64,000 nt of DNA from an uncultured Bacteroidales bacterium. GTDB taxonomy: Bacteria; Bacteroidota; Bacteroidia; Bacteroidales; Bacteroidaceae. The stretch spans positions 121,189 to 185,188 of the forward strand of contig CADAGX010000001.1 in NCBI GenBank assembly GCA_902787575.1, in the 5' to 3' direction. This document shows positions 25,400-64,000 of the stretch, one piece after another (the first letter of the stretch is position 1; each line of letters begins with the position of its first letter). A model generated the notes under the pieces. It had not been told where the DNA came from. It made no database searches and saw nothing but the letters and a program-made list of their open reading frames with translations. A program made the translations under genes and the position numbers.

Positions 25400-25535
25400 C
25401 ACGCCACACGTAGTTTTTCAAAATCCACGTGTCGCATTCGTTCACGCCACACGTCGCAATCGCTCACGCCACACGTCGCAATCGCTCACGCCACACGTCG
25501 CATTTCGTTACGCCACACGTCGCATTTCACGGGAC
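25400..25535. repeat. 22-bp tandem repeat array with CCACACGTCGCA core
   Basis: Four consecutive units of the form CACGCCACACGTCGCAAT plus CGCT or similar (from about 25443 to 25528), preceded by two variants (CGCCACACGTAG near 25402 and CCACGTGTCGCATTCG near 25425). The array occupies the region upstream of the GH115 promoter. Related units occur at 10.0-10.2 kb and 53.07-53.15 kb. Confidence 0.8.
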
Positions 25536-25664: not shown

Positions 25665-25673
25665 TACCTTTGC
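25665..25673 (+). promoter_or_regulatory. -7 box of structured RNA copy A
   Basis: TACCTTTGC; predicted transcription start near 25680. Confidence 0.7.
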
Positions 25674-25679
25674 CGTGTT

Positions 25680-25900
25680 GAGGACGGCATCGGCGGATGC
25701 ACCCAACATCTTTTTGGAAAAATAACATGCGTTTGTTGTTATTCGGAACCGTTTCAAGAACCTGAGAAATTCACGAACAATAACACCGAAAGAATAAATC
25801 ACAAACGCTTACGCGGTATGCGTGGGCGTGATTTATCTGGTGTATTGGGCAATCTCAGGGCCTTTGAAACGTGGATACTGACCGTCCACGTTTTTATTTT
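25680..25900 (+). ncRNA. Structured RNA, copy A (promoter, rod hairpin, terminator)
   Basis: From the -7 box at 25665 to a terminator at 25871-25900. Elements in order: 5' hairpin with GCATC/GATGC (25687-25691 with 25696-25700) closed by GTTG/CAAC; unpaired TTGGAAA (25714-25720); GCGTT (25729-25733); then a long rod with stems GTTTCAA/TTGAAAC (25751-25757 with 25864-25870), CCTGAGA/TCTCAGG (25761-25767 with 25853-25859), CAATAACACC/GGTGTATTG (25778-25787 with 25839-25847) and ATAAATCAC/GTGATTTAT (25794-25802 with 25828-25836); an apical loop containing GCGTGG; last a GTGGA/TCCAC terminator stem. Copy B at 62 kb keeps the layout with different stem sequences. It could be a member of the Bacteroidales-1 or 6S-like RNA families, or a leader of the downstream methyltransferase gene, whose start is 48 bp beyond and which has no visible promoter of its own. 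Confidence 0.7.
25869..25900 (+). terminator. Terminator of structured RNA copy A
   Basis: ACGTGGA (25869-25875) pairs with TCCACGT (25885-25891), followed by TTTTTATTTT. The two outermost base pairs compete with the closing stem of the rod. Confidence 0.8.
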
Positions 25901-25948
25901 GCCCTTTGCCCATTCTCCGAAGACAAGCACGCGCCAAACTTACAGCGT

Positions 25949-26998
25949 ATGGCTAACAAAACACTGACCGAGGCGATGCGTAACAAGAAGGACGAATTCT
26001 ATACGCAGCTCGCCGACATCGAGAATGAACTGCGCCACTACCGCGAGCACTTCCGCGGGAAAGTGGTTTTGTGTAACTGCGATGACCCGTACGAGAGCAA
26101 CTTCTTCAAGTATTTTGCCCTCAACTTCAACACGCTCGGCTTGCGAAAACTCATCGCCACGTGCTACGACGGTTCGCCCGTGCAGGGCAACGAATTGCTT
26201 TTGGACTTTGGCGACCTGACAGATGACCCGAAGAAAATTGCCTACAAGGTGGAGATATCCGAGGTGTCGGACGTCAATGGCGACGGAGTGGTAAATCTGG
26301 CCGACGTGCAGCACTTGCTGCAGAACGACAAGAACGTGCTGTCCATACTGAAAGGGAGCGGCGATTTTCGCTCGCAGGAGTGCATCGAGCTGCTGAAGCA
26401 AGCCGACATCGTATGCACCAACCCACCCTTCTCGCTCTTCCGCGAGTACGTAGCACAGCTGATGAAGTACGAAAAAAAGTTTCTTATCATCGGAAATCAA
26501 AATGCCATTACATATAAAGAAGTTTTTCGCCTAATACAAGAGAACAAGGTATGGCTGGGAATAAAATCAGGAGACATGGCGTTCAAAGTTCCCGATAGTT
26601 ACGAACCCAGAGAAACACGTTACTGGCAAGACGAGACAGGTCAGAAATGGAGAAGCATGGGCAACATCTGTTGGTTTACGAACCTCGACCATAAGAAACG
26701 GCATGAGGAAATGGTATTGTATAAGAACTATAATGAAGAGGAATACCCGCGGTACGACCATTATGACGCGATAGAAGTATCGAAGACAAGCGAGATACCT
26801 TGCGATTTCGACGGCGTAATGGGGGTACCTATCACATTCCTCGGAAAATACAACCCCGAGCAATTTGAGATTATTGATGTTAATCCGCACTTTTTCTGTA
26901 TTGTCAACCAAGGTCTTCCAAAACCCAAGCAACTGACATTACACAACGTTGGGAAGAAAGACCCTTACGCCAGAATTCTTATCCACCGCAAAAAATAA
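25949..26998 (+). CDS. EcoRI-family adenine-specific DNA methyltransferase
   Basis: 349 aa from ATG 25949 (MANKTLTEAMRNKKDEFYTQ); the upstream in-frame ATG at 25871 lies inside the terminator stem and is rejected. The protein follows the M.EcoRI-type family (PF13651): KKDEFYTQLADIENEL near the start, then CDDPYESNFFKYFA, and catalytic motif CTNPPFSLFREY for N6-adenine transfer from SAM. An EF-hand/dockerin-like stretch DVNGDGVVNLADVQHLL sits at about residues 110-126; I recall similar Asp-rich loops in other family members. Family members methylate host DNA, protecting it from a partner nuclease. The partner could be the DUF262-HNH gene 18 bp downstream on the same strand. Base use is more AT-rich toward the 3' half, consistent with acquisition. 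Confidence 0.85.
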   Translation: MANKTLTEAMRNKKDEFYTQLADIENELRHYREHFRGKVVLCNCDDPYESNFFKYFALNFNTLGLRKLIATCYDGSPVQGNELLLDFGDLTDDPKKIAYKVEISEVSDVNGDGVVNLADVQHLLQNDKNVLSILKGSGDFRSQECIELLKQADIVCTNPPFSLFREYVAQLMKYEKKFLIIGNQNAITYKEVFRLIQENKVWLGIKSGDMAFKVPDSYEPRETRYWQDETGQKWRSMGNICWFTNLDHKKRHEEMVLYKNYNEEEYPRYDHYDAIEVSKTSEIPCDFDGVMGVPITFLGKYNPEQFEIIDVNPHFFCIVNQGLPKPKQLTLHNVGKKDPYARILIHRKK

Positions 26999-27016: not shown

Positions 27017-28138
27017 ATGAAAATCGAACTTTGGGAAGTTACCGTTCGCGAGCTGACGGACGGCTACAAAGACAACGAAGAAGCAGGTGTGAGAGGCTAC
27101 GGCGACCGGCTCGACATTCGCCCGCCCTACCAGCGCGAGTTCATCTACGACGAAAAGAAGCGCAACGCTGTCATTACCACCGTTCGCGCCGGATTTCCGC
27201 TGAATGTGATGTACTGGGCCAGGCGCGACGCTGATGCCGACGTGCCATTCGAGGTAATGGACGGCCAGCAGCGCACCATTTCTCTCTGCCAGTACGTGAA
27301 CGGCGACTTCGCGTACGAATTCCAGTACTTTCACAATCTGACGCGCGAAGAGCAGGAGCAGATTCTCGACTACACGCTGATGATATACGTCTGCTCGGGC
27401 AGCGACAAAGAGAAGTTGAAATGGTTCGAAACCATCAACATCGCTGGCGAACGCCTCACGCGGCAGGAACTGCGCAACGCGGTGTATGCCGGCCCGTTCG
27501 TGACAGACGCCAAGCGCTACTTCTCGAAAACCAACTGCGCCGCATACAATATGGGCAAGTACCTGATGACGGGCTCGCCCATCCGTCAGGATTTCCTCGA
27601 GACCGCGCTGCAGTGGGTGGCCAACAGCCAGAGCCGGCCGGGCGTAAGGCAGACCATAGAAGGCTACATGGCAGAACATCAGCACGACCCGAATGCCAGT
27701 CAGCTGTGGCAGTACTTCTGCAGCGTGATGACGTGGGTGGCCGCCACCTTCGACATCGGAAAACGCAAAGCCATAATGAAAGGCGTGGATTGGGGCCGCC
27801 TATACGACCAATACCACACGGAGGTGCTCGACAAGGCAGCGCTGGACCGCGAGATAGGACGGCTGGTTATCGACTCGGAGGTGCAGACAAAGAAAGGCAT
27901 CTGCCCCTACGTCTTGAATCACGACGAGCACGAACTGGGCCTGCGCGCGTTCCCCGAAGACATCAAGCTGGCCGTTTACGAACGGCAACTCGGCATCTGT
28001 CCGCTCTGTGGCCAACATTTCGAATTCGAGGAGATGGAAGGCGACCACATCACACCTTGGCGCGACGGCGGCCGCACGGTGGAAGAGAATTGCCAAATGC
28101 TCTGCCGCGATTGCAACCGCCGCAAGGGCGCGAAATAA
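27017..28138 (+). CDS. DUF262-HNH endonuclease
   Basis: 373 aa. The N-terminal DUF262 domain shows RPPYQREFIYDEKK (about residues 36-49) and the signature FEVMDGQQRTISL (about 78-90), as in GmrS/ParB-like NTP-using subunits of type IV restriction enzymes. The C terminus is a compact HNH nuclease: CPLCGQHFEFEE, then GDHITPWRDGG, then NCQMLCRDCNRRKG, with two zinc CxxC pairs and the catalytic His in GDH. DUF262 plus HNH in one chain is known in restriction and phage-defence proteins. It starts 18 bp after the EcoRI-type methyltransferase, so the pair probably forms one restriction-modification-like operon; the joint function is inferred. REP palindromes begin 55 bp after its stop. Confidence 0.85.
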   Translation: MKIELWEVTVRELTDGYKDNEEAGVRGYGDRLDIRPPYQREFIYDEKKRNAVITTVRAGFPLNVMYWARRDADADVPFEVMDGQQRTISLCQYVNGDFAYEFQYFHNLTREEQEQILDYTLMIYVCSGSDKEKLKWFETINIAGERLTRQELRNAVYAGPFVTDAKRYFSKTNCAAYNMGKYLMTGSPIRQDFLETALQWVANSQSRPGVRQTIEGYMAEHQHDPNASQLWQYFCSVMTWVAATFDIGKRKAIMKGVDWGRLYDQYHTEVLDKAALDREIGRLVIDSEVQTKKGICPYVLNHDEHELGLRAFPEDIKLAVYERQLGICPLCGQHFEFEEMEGDHITPWRDGGRTVEENCQMLCRDCNRRKGAK

Positions 28139-28677: not shown

Positions 28678-29241
28678 CTACGGCATCAAATTCTTTATCT
28701 CGCGATTGATGTCGTCTGGCGCGTCGCAACGCTGAAGATTGTCCTCGTCATACTTCCACCGCGCTGGATTGTTGAGGATGTAACTGCGAATGAAATCGTA
28801 GACGCGCTGGTGACGAATAATATGTTCGTAATAACCCTTCTGCCATAGATGCTGCGAGAACGGAGGCCAACCGTGGTCTCGCACGCCTCGCATATACAAG
28901 AGAGTGGTTTTGCTCTTCAGGCGCTTGACAAGTTCGGGCAGATAATACGTTTCGGCATTCAGGTGGAGGACAAAATGAAGGTGATTGGGCATGACAACAT
29001 GTTCCAGACACACGATGTCGCCGTTGGCCGTCTGCAATTCCTTGTAGCATGCCTCCACCATCCGACCTGCATCATTGCATTGCATCTCGCCATCTTCTAT
29101 TTTTCCGAAAAGGCTACGCCGCTGGTGCGTGACAATCGTGACGAAATAATCGCCAGGCAAGGAATAATCATATCCTCGCATGCGCATATTCTTGCGCTTA
29201 GGAAATTCTGCGGCGTCGTTCATCAGATTTGTCTCATTCAT
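28678..29241 (-). CDS. REP-associated tyrosine transposase (RAYT, Y1/HUH family)
   Basis: 187 aa from the ATG at 29239-29241 (MNETNLMNDAAEFPKRKN). Frame also remains open further upstream through REP 7, but that part merely translates the repeat. The Y1 transposase fold is recognised by YDYSLPGDYFVTIVTHQRR, the HUH metal motif in MPNHLHFVL, and the region HIIRHQRVYDFIRSYILNNP, which carries the candidate catalytic Tyr and the typical RAYT C-terminal pattern. RAYTs are single-copy relatives of IS200/IS605 transposases that bind and cut REP hairpins rather than moving as insertion sequences. It is surrounded by REPs: number 7 is 4 bp before the start codon, number 6 is 94 bp after the stop, and two doublets lie beyond. 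Confidence 0.9.
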   Translation of the reverse strand: MNETNLMNDAAEFPKRKNMRMRGYDYSLPGDYFVTIVTHQRRSLFGKIEDGEMQCNDAGRMVEACYKELQTANGDIVCLEHVVMPNHLHFVLHLNAETYYLPELVKRLKSKTTLLYMRGVRDHGWPPFSQHLWQKGYYEHIIRHQRVYDFIRSYILNNPARWKYDEDNLQRCDAPDDINREIKNLMP

Positions 29242-29245
29242 GTTT

Positions 29246-29271
29246 CGGAATTTGACAAGCAAATTCCCTAC
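29246..29271 (-). repeat. REP 7, in the leader of the RAYT gene
   Basis: Minus-strand REP (CGGAATTTGACAAGC plus AAATTCCCTAC on the plus strand), ending 4 bp upstream of the RAYT start codon. Being a hairpin in the leader it could also affect translation. Confidence 0.85.
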
Positions 29272-29306
29272 AGCGTGGTGCATTCATTTAATTGTTACAT
29301 ACGGCT

Positions 29307-61971: not shown

Positions 61972-61980
61972 TATCTTTGC
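61972..61980 (+). promoter_or_regulatory. -7 box of structured RNA copy B
   Basis: TATCTTTGC; predicted start near 61987. Confidence 0.7.
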
Positions 61981-61986
61981 ATCGGA

Positions 61987-62200
61987 TTCCCTGAATTCCG
62001 TAGCGACGGAACGGGGATAATTTATTGGAAATAAAAAGAAGCGTTATGCTCGTCTTGTCTAACTGAAACCTGAGAAATTTCAACAACGAATTAAGACAAC
62101 ATAATGCCTTCCGCGCATGGCGTGGACTGCATTATTACATCTATTCGTTAGGTTTCTCAGGACCGCAGTTAGACGGTGTGGTATATCAGTTCCACGCTTT
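61987..62200 (+). ncRNA. Structured RNA, copy B
   Basis: Same plan as copy A: 5' hairpin TTCCGT/ACGGAA (61996-62001 with 62006-62011); TTGGAAA (62025-62031); GCGTT (62041-62045); rod stems GTCTAACTG/CAGTTAGAC (62057-62065 with 62166-62174), CCTGAGAAA/TTTCTCAGG (62069-62077 with 62153-62161), AACGAAT/ATTCGTT (62085-62091 with 62143-62149) and ATAATGC/GCATTAT (62101-62107 with 62129-62135); apical loop with GCGTGG; last a hairpin GTGTGG/CCACGC (62176-62181 with 62192-62197) followed by only a short T run. Stem sequences differ from copy A in nearly every pair while pairing is kept. The next start codon is 48 bp downstream. Confidence 0.7.
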
Positions 62201-62214
62201 ACGTATAATTAAAT

Positions 62215-62237
62215 GTCTTCCTCGGGACTGGGAAGAC
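62215..62237 (+). promoter_or_regulatory. Hairpin just before the small lipoprotein gene
   Basis: GTCTTCC (62215-62221) pairs with GGAAGAC (62231-62237), 10 bp before the ATG at 62248. It could act on translation or as a second attenuator stem; copy A has no equivalent. Confidence 0.45.
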
Positions 62238-62247
62238 AAAGAAAACA

Positions 62248-62595
62248 ATGATGAGGAAAAAGACGATTCTATTGGCGCTGATGGCTGTGGTGCTAAGCGT
62301 GGGTTTCAGCGCATGCGGTGATGATGAAATTGCGCCGTCGAATGGAGGCAACACAGGGAATGGCGAACCCTCTCCGCAGGAACAGATGGCTTCCACCTCT
62401 GTGACGGGAGGCGTGTACGACATCAGCGCTACGTCAGCCTCGTTTGTCGGCTACGTCAATTTGTCTCCCACAGAACTCGCCACCGCCACCTTTGGCATTA
62501 TTTGGGGTACGGAGGAGGATTTGAAGTGGGGCAGCAAAGCAGGATATGCCTCGTCTCGCGATTTGGAAACGAACAAATACACCGAAAGGAAATAA
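62248..62595 (+). CDS. Short lipoprotein, possibly truncated
   Basis: 115 aa. Signal peptide with lipobox FSAC (Cys23 counting from the first of two Met), followed by GDDE and a Gly/Asn/Pro-rich linker, then the start of what looks like a beta-sandwich (VYDISATSASFVGYVNLSPTELATATFGIIWGTEEDLKWG). Such fibronectin/Ig-like domains in Bacteroidales lipoproteins are normally longer, and the chain stops abruptly after NKYTERK, so this may be the remnant of a larger surface protein broken by a stop or deletion. It follows RNA copy B by 48 bp and shows no promoter of its own. A BspA-like gene starts 104 bp downstream. Confidence 0.6.
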   Translation: MMRKKTILLALMAVVLSVGFSACGDDEIAPSNGGNTGNGEPSPQEQMASTSVTGGVYDISATSASFVGYVNLSPTELATATFGIIWGTEEDLKWGSKAGYASSRDLETNKYTERK

Positions 62596-62698: not shown

Positions 62699-64000
62699 AT
62701 GAAACGGAAACTTTTACTTCTTCTTGTGGCTCTGCTGCCAATGATAGCCAGTGCCTATGATGCCCAGATTGGCGGCATCTATTACAACTTCTCAGGAAAC
62801 AATGCAACGGTGACTTATAGGGAATTTGAAAACTCTGATTATTCAGGCAAAGTAGTTATTCCTAAGTCCGTTGCCTACAAGGGCAAGACTTATAGCGTGA
62901 CAAGCATCGGTAGTGAAGCCTTCTCTGCTTGCACCGACCTGACCTCCATCACCATCCCAAACAGCGTGACAAGCATCGGTAGTGAAGCCTTCCGTGGTTG
63001 CAGCAGCCTGACTTCCATCACCATCCCAAACAGCTGGACAAGCATCGGTAGGGGTGCCTTCAATGGATGCACCAGCCTGACCTCCATCACCATCCCAAAC
63101 AACGTGACAAGCATCAGCGATTCTGCTTTCTATGGTTGCAGCAGCCTGACCTCCATCACCATCCCAAACAGCGTGACAAGCATCGGTAGTGATGCCTTCT
63201 CAGGTTGCACCAGCCTGACATCCATCACCATTGGCAACAGCGTGACAAGCATCAGCAAGTATGCCTTCCGTGATTGCACCAGCCTGACCTCCATCACCAT
63301 CCCAAACAGCGTGGCCAGCATCGGTTTGGGTGCATTCCAAGGCACCAGCCTGATAACCATCACCATCCCAAACAGCGTGACAAGCATCGGAGATTATGCC
63401 TTCCTTGGTTGCACCAGCCTGACCTCCATCGCCATTGGCAACAGCGTGACAAGCATCAGCAACTGTGCCTTCTATGGTTGCACCAGCCTGACCTCCATCA
63501 CCATCCCCAACAGCGTTACAAGCATCGGCAATAGTGCCTTCCTAGGTTGCACCAGCCTGACCTCCATCACCATCCCAAACAGCGTGACAAGCATCGGCAG
63601 CATGGCCTTCCAAGGTTGCACCAACCTGACCTCCATCACCATCCCTAACAGCGTGACCAGCATAGATGCCTTCCGTGATTGCACCAGCCTGACCTCCGTC
63701 ACCATCCCAAACAGCGTGAAAAGCATCGGTCCTGATGCCTTCCGTGATTGCACCAGCCTGACCTCCATCACCATCCCAAACAGCGTGACAAGCATCGGTA
63801 GTTATGCCTTCAATGGTTGCACCAGCCTGACATCCATCACCATCCCAAACAGAGTAAAGAGCATCGGAAATTATGCCTTTAATGGTTGCACCAGCCTGAC
63901 CTCCATTCAGGTTGAAACCGGTAATACCACCTATGATTCCCGTGACAACTGCAATGCCATTATTGAAACTGCCACAAACACCCTGATTGCGGGTTGCCAA
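62699..64000 (+). CDS. BspA-like leucine-rich repeat surface protein (3' end outside window)
   Basis: 434 codons to the window edge with no stop. Signal peptide [19 protein letters not shown], a short N-terminal part ([18 protein letters not shown]..), then 15 LRR_5 repeats of 23 aa with consensus [23 protein letters not shown] from about residue 66 on. Units 7 and 12 are one and two codons short. BspA-like proteins of oral and gut Bacteroidales and trichomonads bind fibronectin, fibrinogen or other cells. At DNA level the 69-bp units are almost identical over long stretches (for example the ACCAGCCTGACCTCCATCAC block), favouring recombination. A C-terminal anchor or sorting domain would be beyond the window. 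Long minus-strand ORFs here are repeat shadows. Confidence 0.9.

Follow-up and report, generated by a model that had tools for sequence, protein, structure and literature searches.

A putative family of bistable mRNA leaders ahead of DNA-modification and cell-surface genes in Bacteroidales

The window, the whole 64,000-nucleotide (nt) stretch of DNA analysed here (contig CADAGX010000001.1 of assembly GCA_902787575.1, positions 121,189 to 185,188, from an uncultured Bacteroidales bacterium), contains two related structured elements, copy A from position 25665 and copy B from position 61972, each placed shortly before a gene. The locus raises the question of whether these elements are free-standing small RNAs (sRNAs) or belong to the mRNAs of the genes behind them, and of how they would act. 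A first-pass annotation had proposed either a trans-acting sRNA family or a leader that attenuates the next gene; that interpretation is supported, and of its two options the leader is preferred. The explanation favoured is a family of cis-acting, bistable mRNA leaders, each a transcription attenuator in which a long rod would serve as antiterminator, and a probability of roughly 0.6 is given to it. It is drawn from sequence, namely from conservation, position, covariation of both folds and gene association.

The rod is, by its pattern of covariation, a structure under selection. In copy A, which like copy B and the genes behind both lies on the forward strand, it comprises P1 (GTTTCAA/TTGAAAC; 25751..25757 with 25864..25870), P2 (CCTGAGA at 25761..25767 with TCTCAGG at 25853..25859), P3 (CAATAACACC/GGTGTATTG; 25778..25787 with 25839-25847) and P4 (ATAAATCAC/GTGATTTAT; 25794-25802 with 25828-25836), with an apical GCGTGG. 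Over 100 distinct rows, 93.7% of the cells pair and 523 cells have changed on both sides, compared with 148 in shuffles; the covariation score is 0.471 versus 0.166 (0 of 500 shuffles), slid controls give at most 0.09, and the shuffle counts ignore the relatedness of the sequences. The compensatory stem changes noticed earlier between A and B, and taken there for a selected RNA structure, are real and general, since the stems covary far beyond the two copies. In 48 rows (7 antisense) drawn from four genomes chosen without the P2 pattern, the covariation score is 0.597 versus 0.191. P1 covaries, P3 is variable yet complementary between copies, and G-U is the commonest pair at three positions of P4. 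The loci L001-L003 and L005-L188 were chosen by an exact P2 pattern, so that P2 is invariant among them, and its covariation over many 7-mers rests on the copies found by a covariance model, with TCTGGTA, CGTGAGA, CGTAGGA, CCTAGGA and other forms. In a 6.7-Mb genome with 21 places, five copies (L252, L253, L254, L259, L264) share an apical core of about 40 nt, loop included, and their P1 and P3 stems, compared by eye, are mutually unrelated yet internally complementary. Folded singly, copies A and B have z values of -4.4 and -7.4, and in each case 0 of 200 dinucleotide shuffles was as good.

The family was assembled in two ways. The exact P2 pattern (CCTGAGAAATT, 60-90 or 62-92 nt, TCTCAGG) matches in 33 of 201 genomes of the taxonomic family, the source genome included, and the reversed pattern, used as a control, in none. 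Named matches amount to at least 116 stretches; among those listed are Prevotella, Bacteroides acidifaciens, Phocaeicola, Muribaculaceae and Paludibacteraceae, and also Pedobacter, Dyadobacter, Niabella and metagenome-assembled genomes (MAGs) of Kiritimatiellae, the taxon labels of MAG contigs (Firmicutes, Verrucomicrobia, Kiritimatiellae) being subject to possible binning errors. A cultured strain, B. acidifaciens DSM 15896, has one copy (L056). P1 and an RCC-like motif are also present in 135 (130 distinct) of 188 pattern matches and missing from 53; this member filter (P1 of at least 5 base pairs (bp) plus the RCC-like motif) also discarded a few real-looking loci (L057, L082, L093, L187), and L126 and L185 were removed by eye before the gene-cluster listing and the print-out of leaders. 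The covariance model, R1, was trained on 30 B-like sequences, copy B among them, with copy A and a third copy, C, left out; copy B therefore matches it by construction, and copy A is found at 43.6 bits (E 3e-8). The model locates three places in the source genome. Run over Bacteroidales, as the first-pass annotation had suggested, it returned many further copies: 99 of 294 sampled genomes of the order matched at E <=0.001, and 20 of 296 genomes sampled across the phylum at E <=1e-4, 18 of these 20 lying outside the taxonomic family. Four chosen genomes hold 13, 5, 7 and 21 copies (one of the 7 is the antisense of another), and the genomes reached through L044 (labelled Kiritimatiellaeota) and L048 (labelled uncultured bacterium) have 7 and 5 places. 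The alignments fitted to R1 (A4 and A7) contain 7 and 1 antisense matches of the palindromic rod. Six copies (L154, L157, L160, L166, L169, L184; L166 of the HSDR_N type) are found on IMG/VR contigs, ahead of one gene cluster; some copies therefore travel on mobile elements or sit on misassigned contigs. Copies L266, in which P2 is broken, and L281 lie upstream of DDE transposase genes.

By the same comparative evidence, the RNA has two conserved and mutually exclusive folds, of which the rod seen in the first pass (fold alpha) is one; the other (fold beta) is a new finding of this analysis. Following the 5' part (a GCGTTATGCTTATCTTGT-like stretch), segment 1 is complementary to the 5' arm of the rod, segment 2, and segment 3, the apical GCGTGG strand, is complementary to a 3' CCACGC strand, segment 4. 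In copy A, segment 1 (GCGTTTGTTGTTATTCGG, 25729..25746) forms a duplex of -17.4 kcal/mol with segment 2 (25786..25808, which contains the 5' strand of P4), and segment 3 (apical GCGTGGGCG, 25820..25828, in the 3' arm of the rod) can pair either in the rod or with segment 4 (CGTCCACGT, 25883..25891). Across the family, the 1:2 duplex energy is -20.9 for a member's own halves and -14.6 for halves swapped between members, and the corresponding values for 3:4 are -27.6 and -20.5. The observed 1:2, 3:4 and 4:5 scores, segment 5 being a stretch near the start codon, were each reached by 0 of 200 permutations, and the 1:5 score is at chance (29 of 200). On the alignment, 92.0% of the 3:4 cells are paired, with 15 double changes versus 4.6 in shuffles. 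When the prefix before the apex is folded alone, at least 5 bp of 1:2 form in 118 of 125 members, as opposed to 79 of 123 swapped ones.

Two small inner hairpins complete fold beta. The first, h1, pairs the A-run before P2 with the T-run after it (in copy A, GAA at 25758..25760 with TTC at 25770-25772), and the two runs are equal in length in 106 of 125 members. The second, h2, is a GGY:RCC pairing (in copy A, GGC at 25848..25850 with GCC at 25860-25862) that is matched in 120 of 121 scorable members, 4 more being unscored, with C:G in 46, T:A in 74 and T:G in 1. This accounts for the conserved linkers of the rod, which pair as h1 and h2 in the alternative fold; CCTGAGA and TCTCAGG become the loops of two separate hairpins, complementary over 7 nt. 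These competing helices also bear on a reading without attenuation, in which the element is a structured 5' untranslated region (UTR) and a protein bound to it, for example one of the RRM type, governs the stability or translation of the mRNA. The very stable rod next to start codons would suit such a role, and the available text of PMC11697453 describes RbpB, a global RNA-binding protein of the RRM type in B. thetaiotaomicron; but the conserved competing helices 1:2 and 3:4 and the T-tract would be left unexplained, and a protein-bound UTR is considered unlikely.

A T-tract (at least 6 T in 9) follows 3:4 in 85 of 125 members and a control position in 9 of 125; in copy A it occupies 25891..25899. 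Mutually exclusive helices conserved by covariation, one mark of a transcription attenuator, are present here. Transcription attenuators with competing segments are known from the trp type and from riboswitch expression platforms. The family has in common with them the ladder of exclusive helices 1:2, 2:3 and 3:4 upstream of a gene, with the T-tract usually after the last; it differs in having, by eye, no apparent conserved leader peptide and no Rfam aptamer match, in two hairpins that carry complementary 7-nt loops, and in that one family serves unrelated accessory genes. A conserved leader peptide had been considered from the ATG in GCGTTATGC; other copies lack this ATG (GCGTTTTGC, GCGTTTGC, GCGTTTAGC), and the candidate was dropped by eye, with no coding test.

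The placement of the RNA argues for a leader. The next called ORF (open reading frame) is co-oriented in 111 of 130 members, opposite in 12 and out of reach in 7, the ORFs being those of our own greedy caller. Of the 82 leaders (out of 118) with suitable spacing, 71 have a TAnnTTTG box upstream of the RNA and 2 have one in the gap to the start codon, the stretches compared being 110 nt upstream and the shorter gap; a sigma-70 promoter scan was uninformative here. The median gap from the 3' end of the RNA to the start codon is 48 nt in the 82 leaders. The conserved leader extends to the start codon: copy B and its kin carry an extra hairpin with a loop that complements the 3' arm of the hairpin before it, and this conserved 4:5 pairing reaches into the gap before the start codon in the B-like set. 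In copy B itself the hairpin, P7, spans 62215..62237, and its loop, segment 5 (GGGACTG, 62224-62230), is complementary to segment 4.

The same unit, running from promoter to T-tract (present in 85 of 125), would also be expected of trans-acting sRNAs with their own promoter and terminator that merely happen to lie upstream of these genes, and the multicopy occurrence resembles that of FopS, a trans-acting family of Bacteroides described in the available text of PMC11697453. Against such sRNAs stands a position that is not independent of the neighbour, with the co-orientation and the near absence of promoter boxes from the gap just given, the conserved 4:5 pairing, which involves a segment adjoining the start codon, and a functional bias among the downstream genes that is not seen in the upstream families listed. 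A free-standing sRNA is for these reasons quite unlikely, and the RNA is preferably regarded, from its place in the sequence, as an mRNA leader.

The genes downstream are, as judged from family matches, rich in DNA methyltransferase and restriction proteins, BspA-type proteins and exported proteins, and the upstream families listed are not. Twenty-five family names were inspected in each list, out of 74 (Pfam), 89 (PADLOC) and 129 (NCBIfam) downstream and out of 117 (Pfam) and 52 (PADLOC) upstream. In the downstream set (A5; 118 proteins from co-oriented ORFs) the Pfam counts, which overlap and are not de-duplicated, are 9 for the BspA leucine-rich repeat family LRR_5, 8 for HSDR_N, 7 for EcoRI_methylase, 5 for N6_Mtase, 4 each for Eco57I and MmeI_Mtase and 3 for D12 methyltransferase. 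PADLOC adds type I and type II methyltransferases, and NCBIfam adds MAD2 (6), HxsD (3) and the type IX secretion system (T9SS) sorting domain (3). Proteins confirmed singly are HSDR_N (L166), N6_Mtase/HsdM_N (L015) and SNF2/ResIII (L018), together with the HxsD genes of the His-Xaa-Ser peptide system behind three copies (L026, L047, L087). Among the upstream neighbours (105 proteins; nearest ORF of at least 90 codons within 1500 nt on either strand), neither gene class is represented in the 25 family names inspected out of 117 (Pfam) or out of 52 (PADLOC, where most are candidate (PDC) models having 1-2 members each); because the ORF caller was our own, some upstream control ORFs are possibly spurious, which would dilute that control. 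Signal peptides, by a crude rule of our own, are predicted in 55 of 118 downstream and 10 of 105 upstream proteins.

This gene set bears on two further explanations. One is a metabolite riboswitch, in which the fold would be chosen by a small molecule bound to the conserved junction and apical region; a conserved core with variable stems, alternative folds and a multicopy leader all agree with it. However, the linkers are largely explained by alternative pairing, which leaves little unpaired conserved sequence, and restriction-modification systems, surface proteins and HxsD peptides point to no metabolic pathway, so that a riboswitch appears rather unlikely. The other is a mobile cassette, acting at the DNA level or guided by RNA, whose two loops carry guide-like variable sequence and whose gene is cargo. 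The gene set is indeed cargo-like and the element multicopy, the five copies of one genome combine copy-specific, complementary P1 and P3 stems with a shared apical core, EcoRI-type methyltransferase genes occur both with and without the RNA, and two copies stand by transposase genes. Yet 10-mers of the variable stems are hardly more frequent in own than in other flanks (0.392 versus 0.350 per 10 kb, n=121), the 25 family names inspected out of 74 (Pfam) and out of 129 (NCBIfam) include no recombinase, the element's own promoter box is conserved, and P4 favours G-U at three positions, as in RNA; a cassette is accordingly held to be highly improbable. IS110-type bridge RNAs have guide loops that match flanking DNA and an adjacent recombinase gene. 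Guide loops of that type were considered and rejected, because 10-mers did not match an element's own flanks clearly more often than others (n=121). An integron attC site was dropped on its consensus alone.

For the bistable leader, we infer termination, a direction of switching, a signal and a kissing step, as follows. Transcription would begin just past the TAnnTTTG box, produce the leader and run on into the gene. The leader segments lie in series, and each is the complement of the one after it. Fold alpha would join segments 2 and 3, clamped by P1, P2 and P3, into the long rod; in fold beta, 1:2 and 3:4 would form hairpins with the small inner stems GAAA:UUUC and GGY:RCC. The complementary 7-nt P2 loops may then kiss, and the switch to the rod would start from there. 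Fold beta would terminate transcription, or block the gene, and the rod would antiterminate; beta is proposed as the terminating fold because the T-tract usually follows 3:4. In the B-like set, segment 4 can pair with segment 5 as well, just ahead of the start codon, which could act on translation. Some signal would shift the balance of folds and with it the control of DNA-modification and surface genes.

Several observations weigh against this explanation. The claim of the first pass that copy B keeps every element in the same order stands for all but the U-run terminator: copy B is without a good terminator tail (CACGCTTTACG), and a terminator scan that found the terminator of A found none in B. 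Forty of 125 members have fewer than 6 T in 9, and copy A and others have a local terminator-like hairpin that is independent of segment 3 (in A, with 25869-25874 as 5' arm and segment 4 as 3' arm). The 3:5 score of 15.10 exceeds all 200 permutations (maximum 14.87) and is left unexplained by the model. In 52 model-found copies, among which the P2 register is wrong in at least two rows that were kept (L279, L266), h1 is matched in 46 and h2 in 41, narrow margins over the maxima of 45 and 40 in 300 swaps; the closing helix GAAGCG:CGCTTC is weakly supported. In silico the rod is much more stable than fold beta, from which it follows that beta may be a mere folding intermediate. Loci of EcoRI-type methyltransferases are present in 63 of 201 genomes, and in the 30 best-scoring ones, which were fetched, the RNA lies directly upstream (E<0.01) in 7, that of copy A included, with weak partial matches in 4 more; at 7, or at most 11, of 30 loci the leader is recurrent but not obligatory.

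No described counterpart was found in literature searches at the level of titles and abstracts. Rfam 15 returned tRNA only for the whole window at gathering score, one miRNA model far below the cut-off for copy A and none for copy B when each was searched alone at E up to 10, and 0 matches for 20 relative loci at gathering score. The comparison urged earlier thus gave the element no family above cut-off, Bacteroidales-1 included; the only match of that family (RF01693; threshold 60 bits) in the source genome is at C5:42650-42829 (122.7 bits), outside the window. A sugar-linked mRNA leader of B. thetaiotaomicron belongs to a gene that we take to be roc. According to the available text of PMC7366714 this leader links colonization to dietary sugars; by that description it likewise controls a Bacteroides gene, and it is described for one gene. 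The FopS family, as described in the available text of PMC11697453, is likewise a multicopy noncoding RNA of Bacteroidaceae with its own promoter, and differs by that description from the present family, in which a rod of about 120 nt adjoins the gene. Bacteroidales-1, listed in the text available of PMC2864571, is likewise a structured RNA of Bacteroidales, and copies A and B do not match RF01693; the same text names the Bacteroides-2 and GUCCY-hairpin motifs without Rfam numbers. Of three discovery papers searched for a few words (PMC11109978, PMC8632094, PMC6429828), two contained none of them, and in the third they occurred only in an aside on the phylum and in a cloning step.

The remaining elements of the copies in the source genome are as follows. 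The elements named for copy A in the first pass are found where they had been placed, and those of the partner copy B at 61972-62197. Copy A begins with a Bacteroidetes-type -7 box (TACCTTTGC, 25665..25673) and a 5' hairpin (25676..25709, from the whole-leader fold), and the TTGGAAA and GCGTT blocks can be read in its sequence. It precedes a gene for an EcoRI-type adenine methyltransferase (25949..26998; Pfam PF13651, PADLOC MTase_II, a type II methyltransferase), followed by one for a type II restriction enzyme by PADLOC (27017..28138; GmrSD_N and HNH by Pfam). Just 5' of copy A, at 25400-25530 of the window, a cacgccacacgtcgcaat-like unit is repeated several times, as read in the sequence, and an IS200-like Y1 transposase lies at 28678-29283, near the restriction-modification genes.

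Copy B has its -7 box (TATCTTTGC) at 61972..61980, a 5' hairpin by folding at 61987..62016, segment 1 at 62041..62056 (duplex with segment 2, -16.2 kcal/mol), segment 2 at 62093..62107, segment 3 (GCGTGGACTG) at 62120..62129 and segment 4 (CAGTTCCACGC) at 62187..62197. Its rod stems are P1 (62057..62065 with 62166-62174), P2 (62069..62075 with 62155-62161) and P3 (62085..62091 with 62143-62149). The gene behind it (62248..62595) is a 115-aa ORF with no family match and, by the crude rule, a signal-like N-terminus; a BspA-type leucine-rich repeat gene at 62699 comes next. The pair of copies first noticed was incomplete: copy C, found elsewhere in the source genome (G000:C14:6434) by the exact P2 pattern and by the model search, precedes another type II methyltransferase gene. 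In leaders of the A and C type (L003:1380-1780, which is copy C, and kin), a CCGATAAGTG/CCGAAGATAAGC motif ahead of the start codon is, by eye, complementary to segment 3 or 1, and may be the segment 5 of these leaders.

The leader RNA probably provides on/off control of DNA-modification and cell-surface genes, a reading that comes from sequence comparison. A wider proposal is put forward tentatively, as a possibility worth keeping in view: the RNAs would form a so far unrecognised, regulon-building class over Bacteroidia and Kiritimatiellota MAGs. The two halves of a leader would act as sense and antisense within one molecule, strand exchange between terminator fold and rod would start from the kissing 7-nt loops, and copy-specific stems would prevent cross-reaction among the copies of a genome. 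Kissing antisense pairs are known, for example, from the plasmid RNAs RNAI/RNAII. There, too, two hairpins have complementary 7-nt loops able to progress to a long duplex; here a single molecule carries both hairpins, and its own rod is the long duplex. Both folds are defined base by base, so point mutants can test the switch directly.

Bacteroidales are among the dominant bacteria of the gut, and little is known of how their accessory genes are controlled. If true, the sense-antisense reading would put restriction-modification and surface genes under one RNA-level switch. In the leader family, a single RNA device would tie together two classes of genes that decide encounters with phage and host, those for DNA modification and restriction and those for surface and exported proteins.
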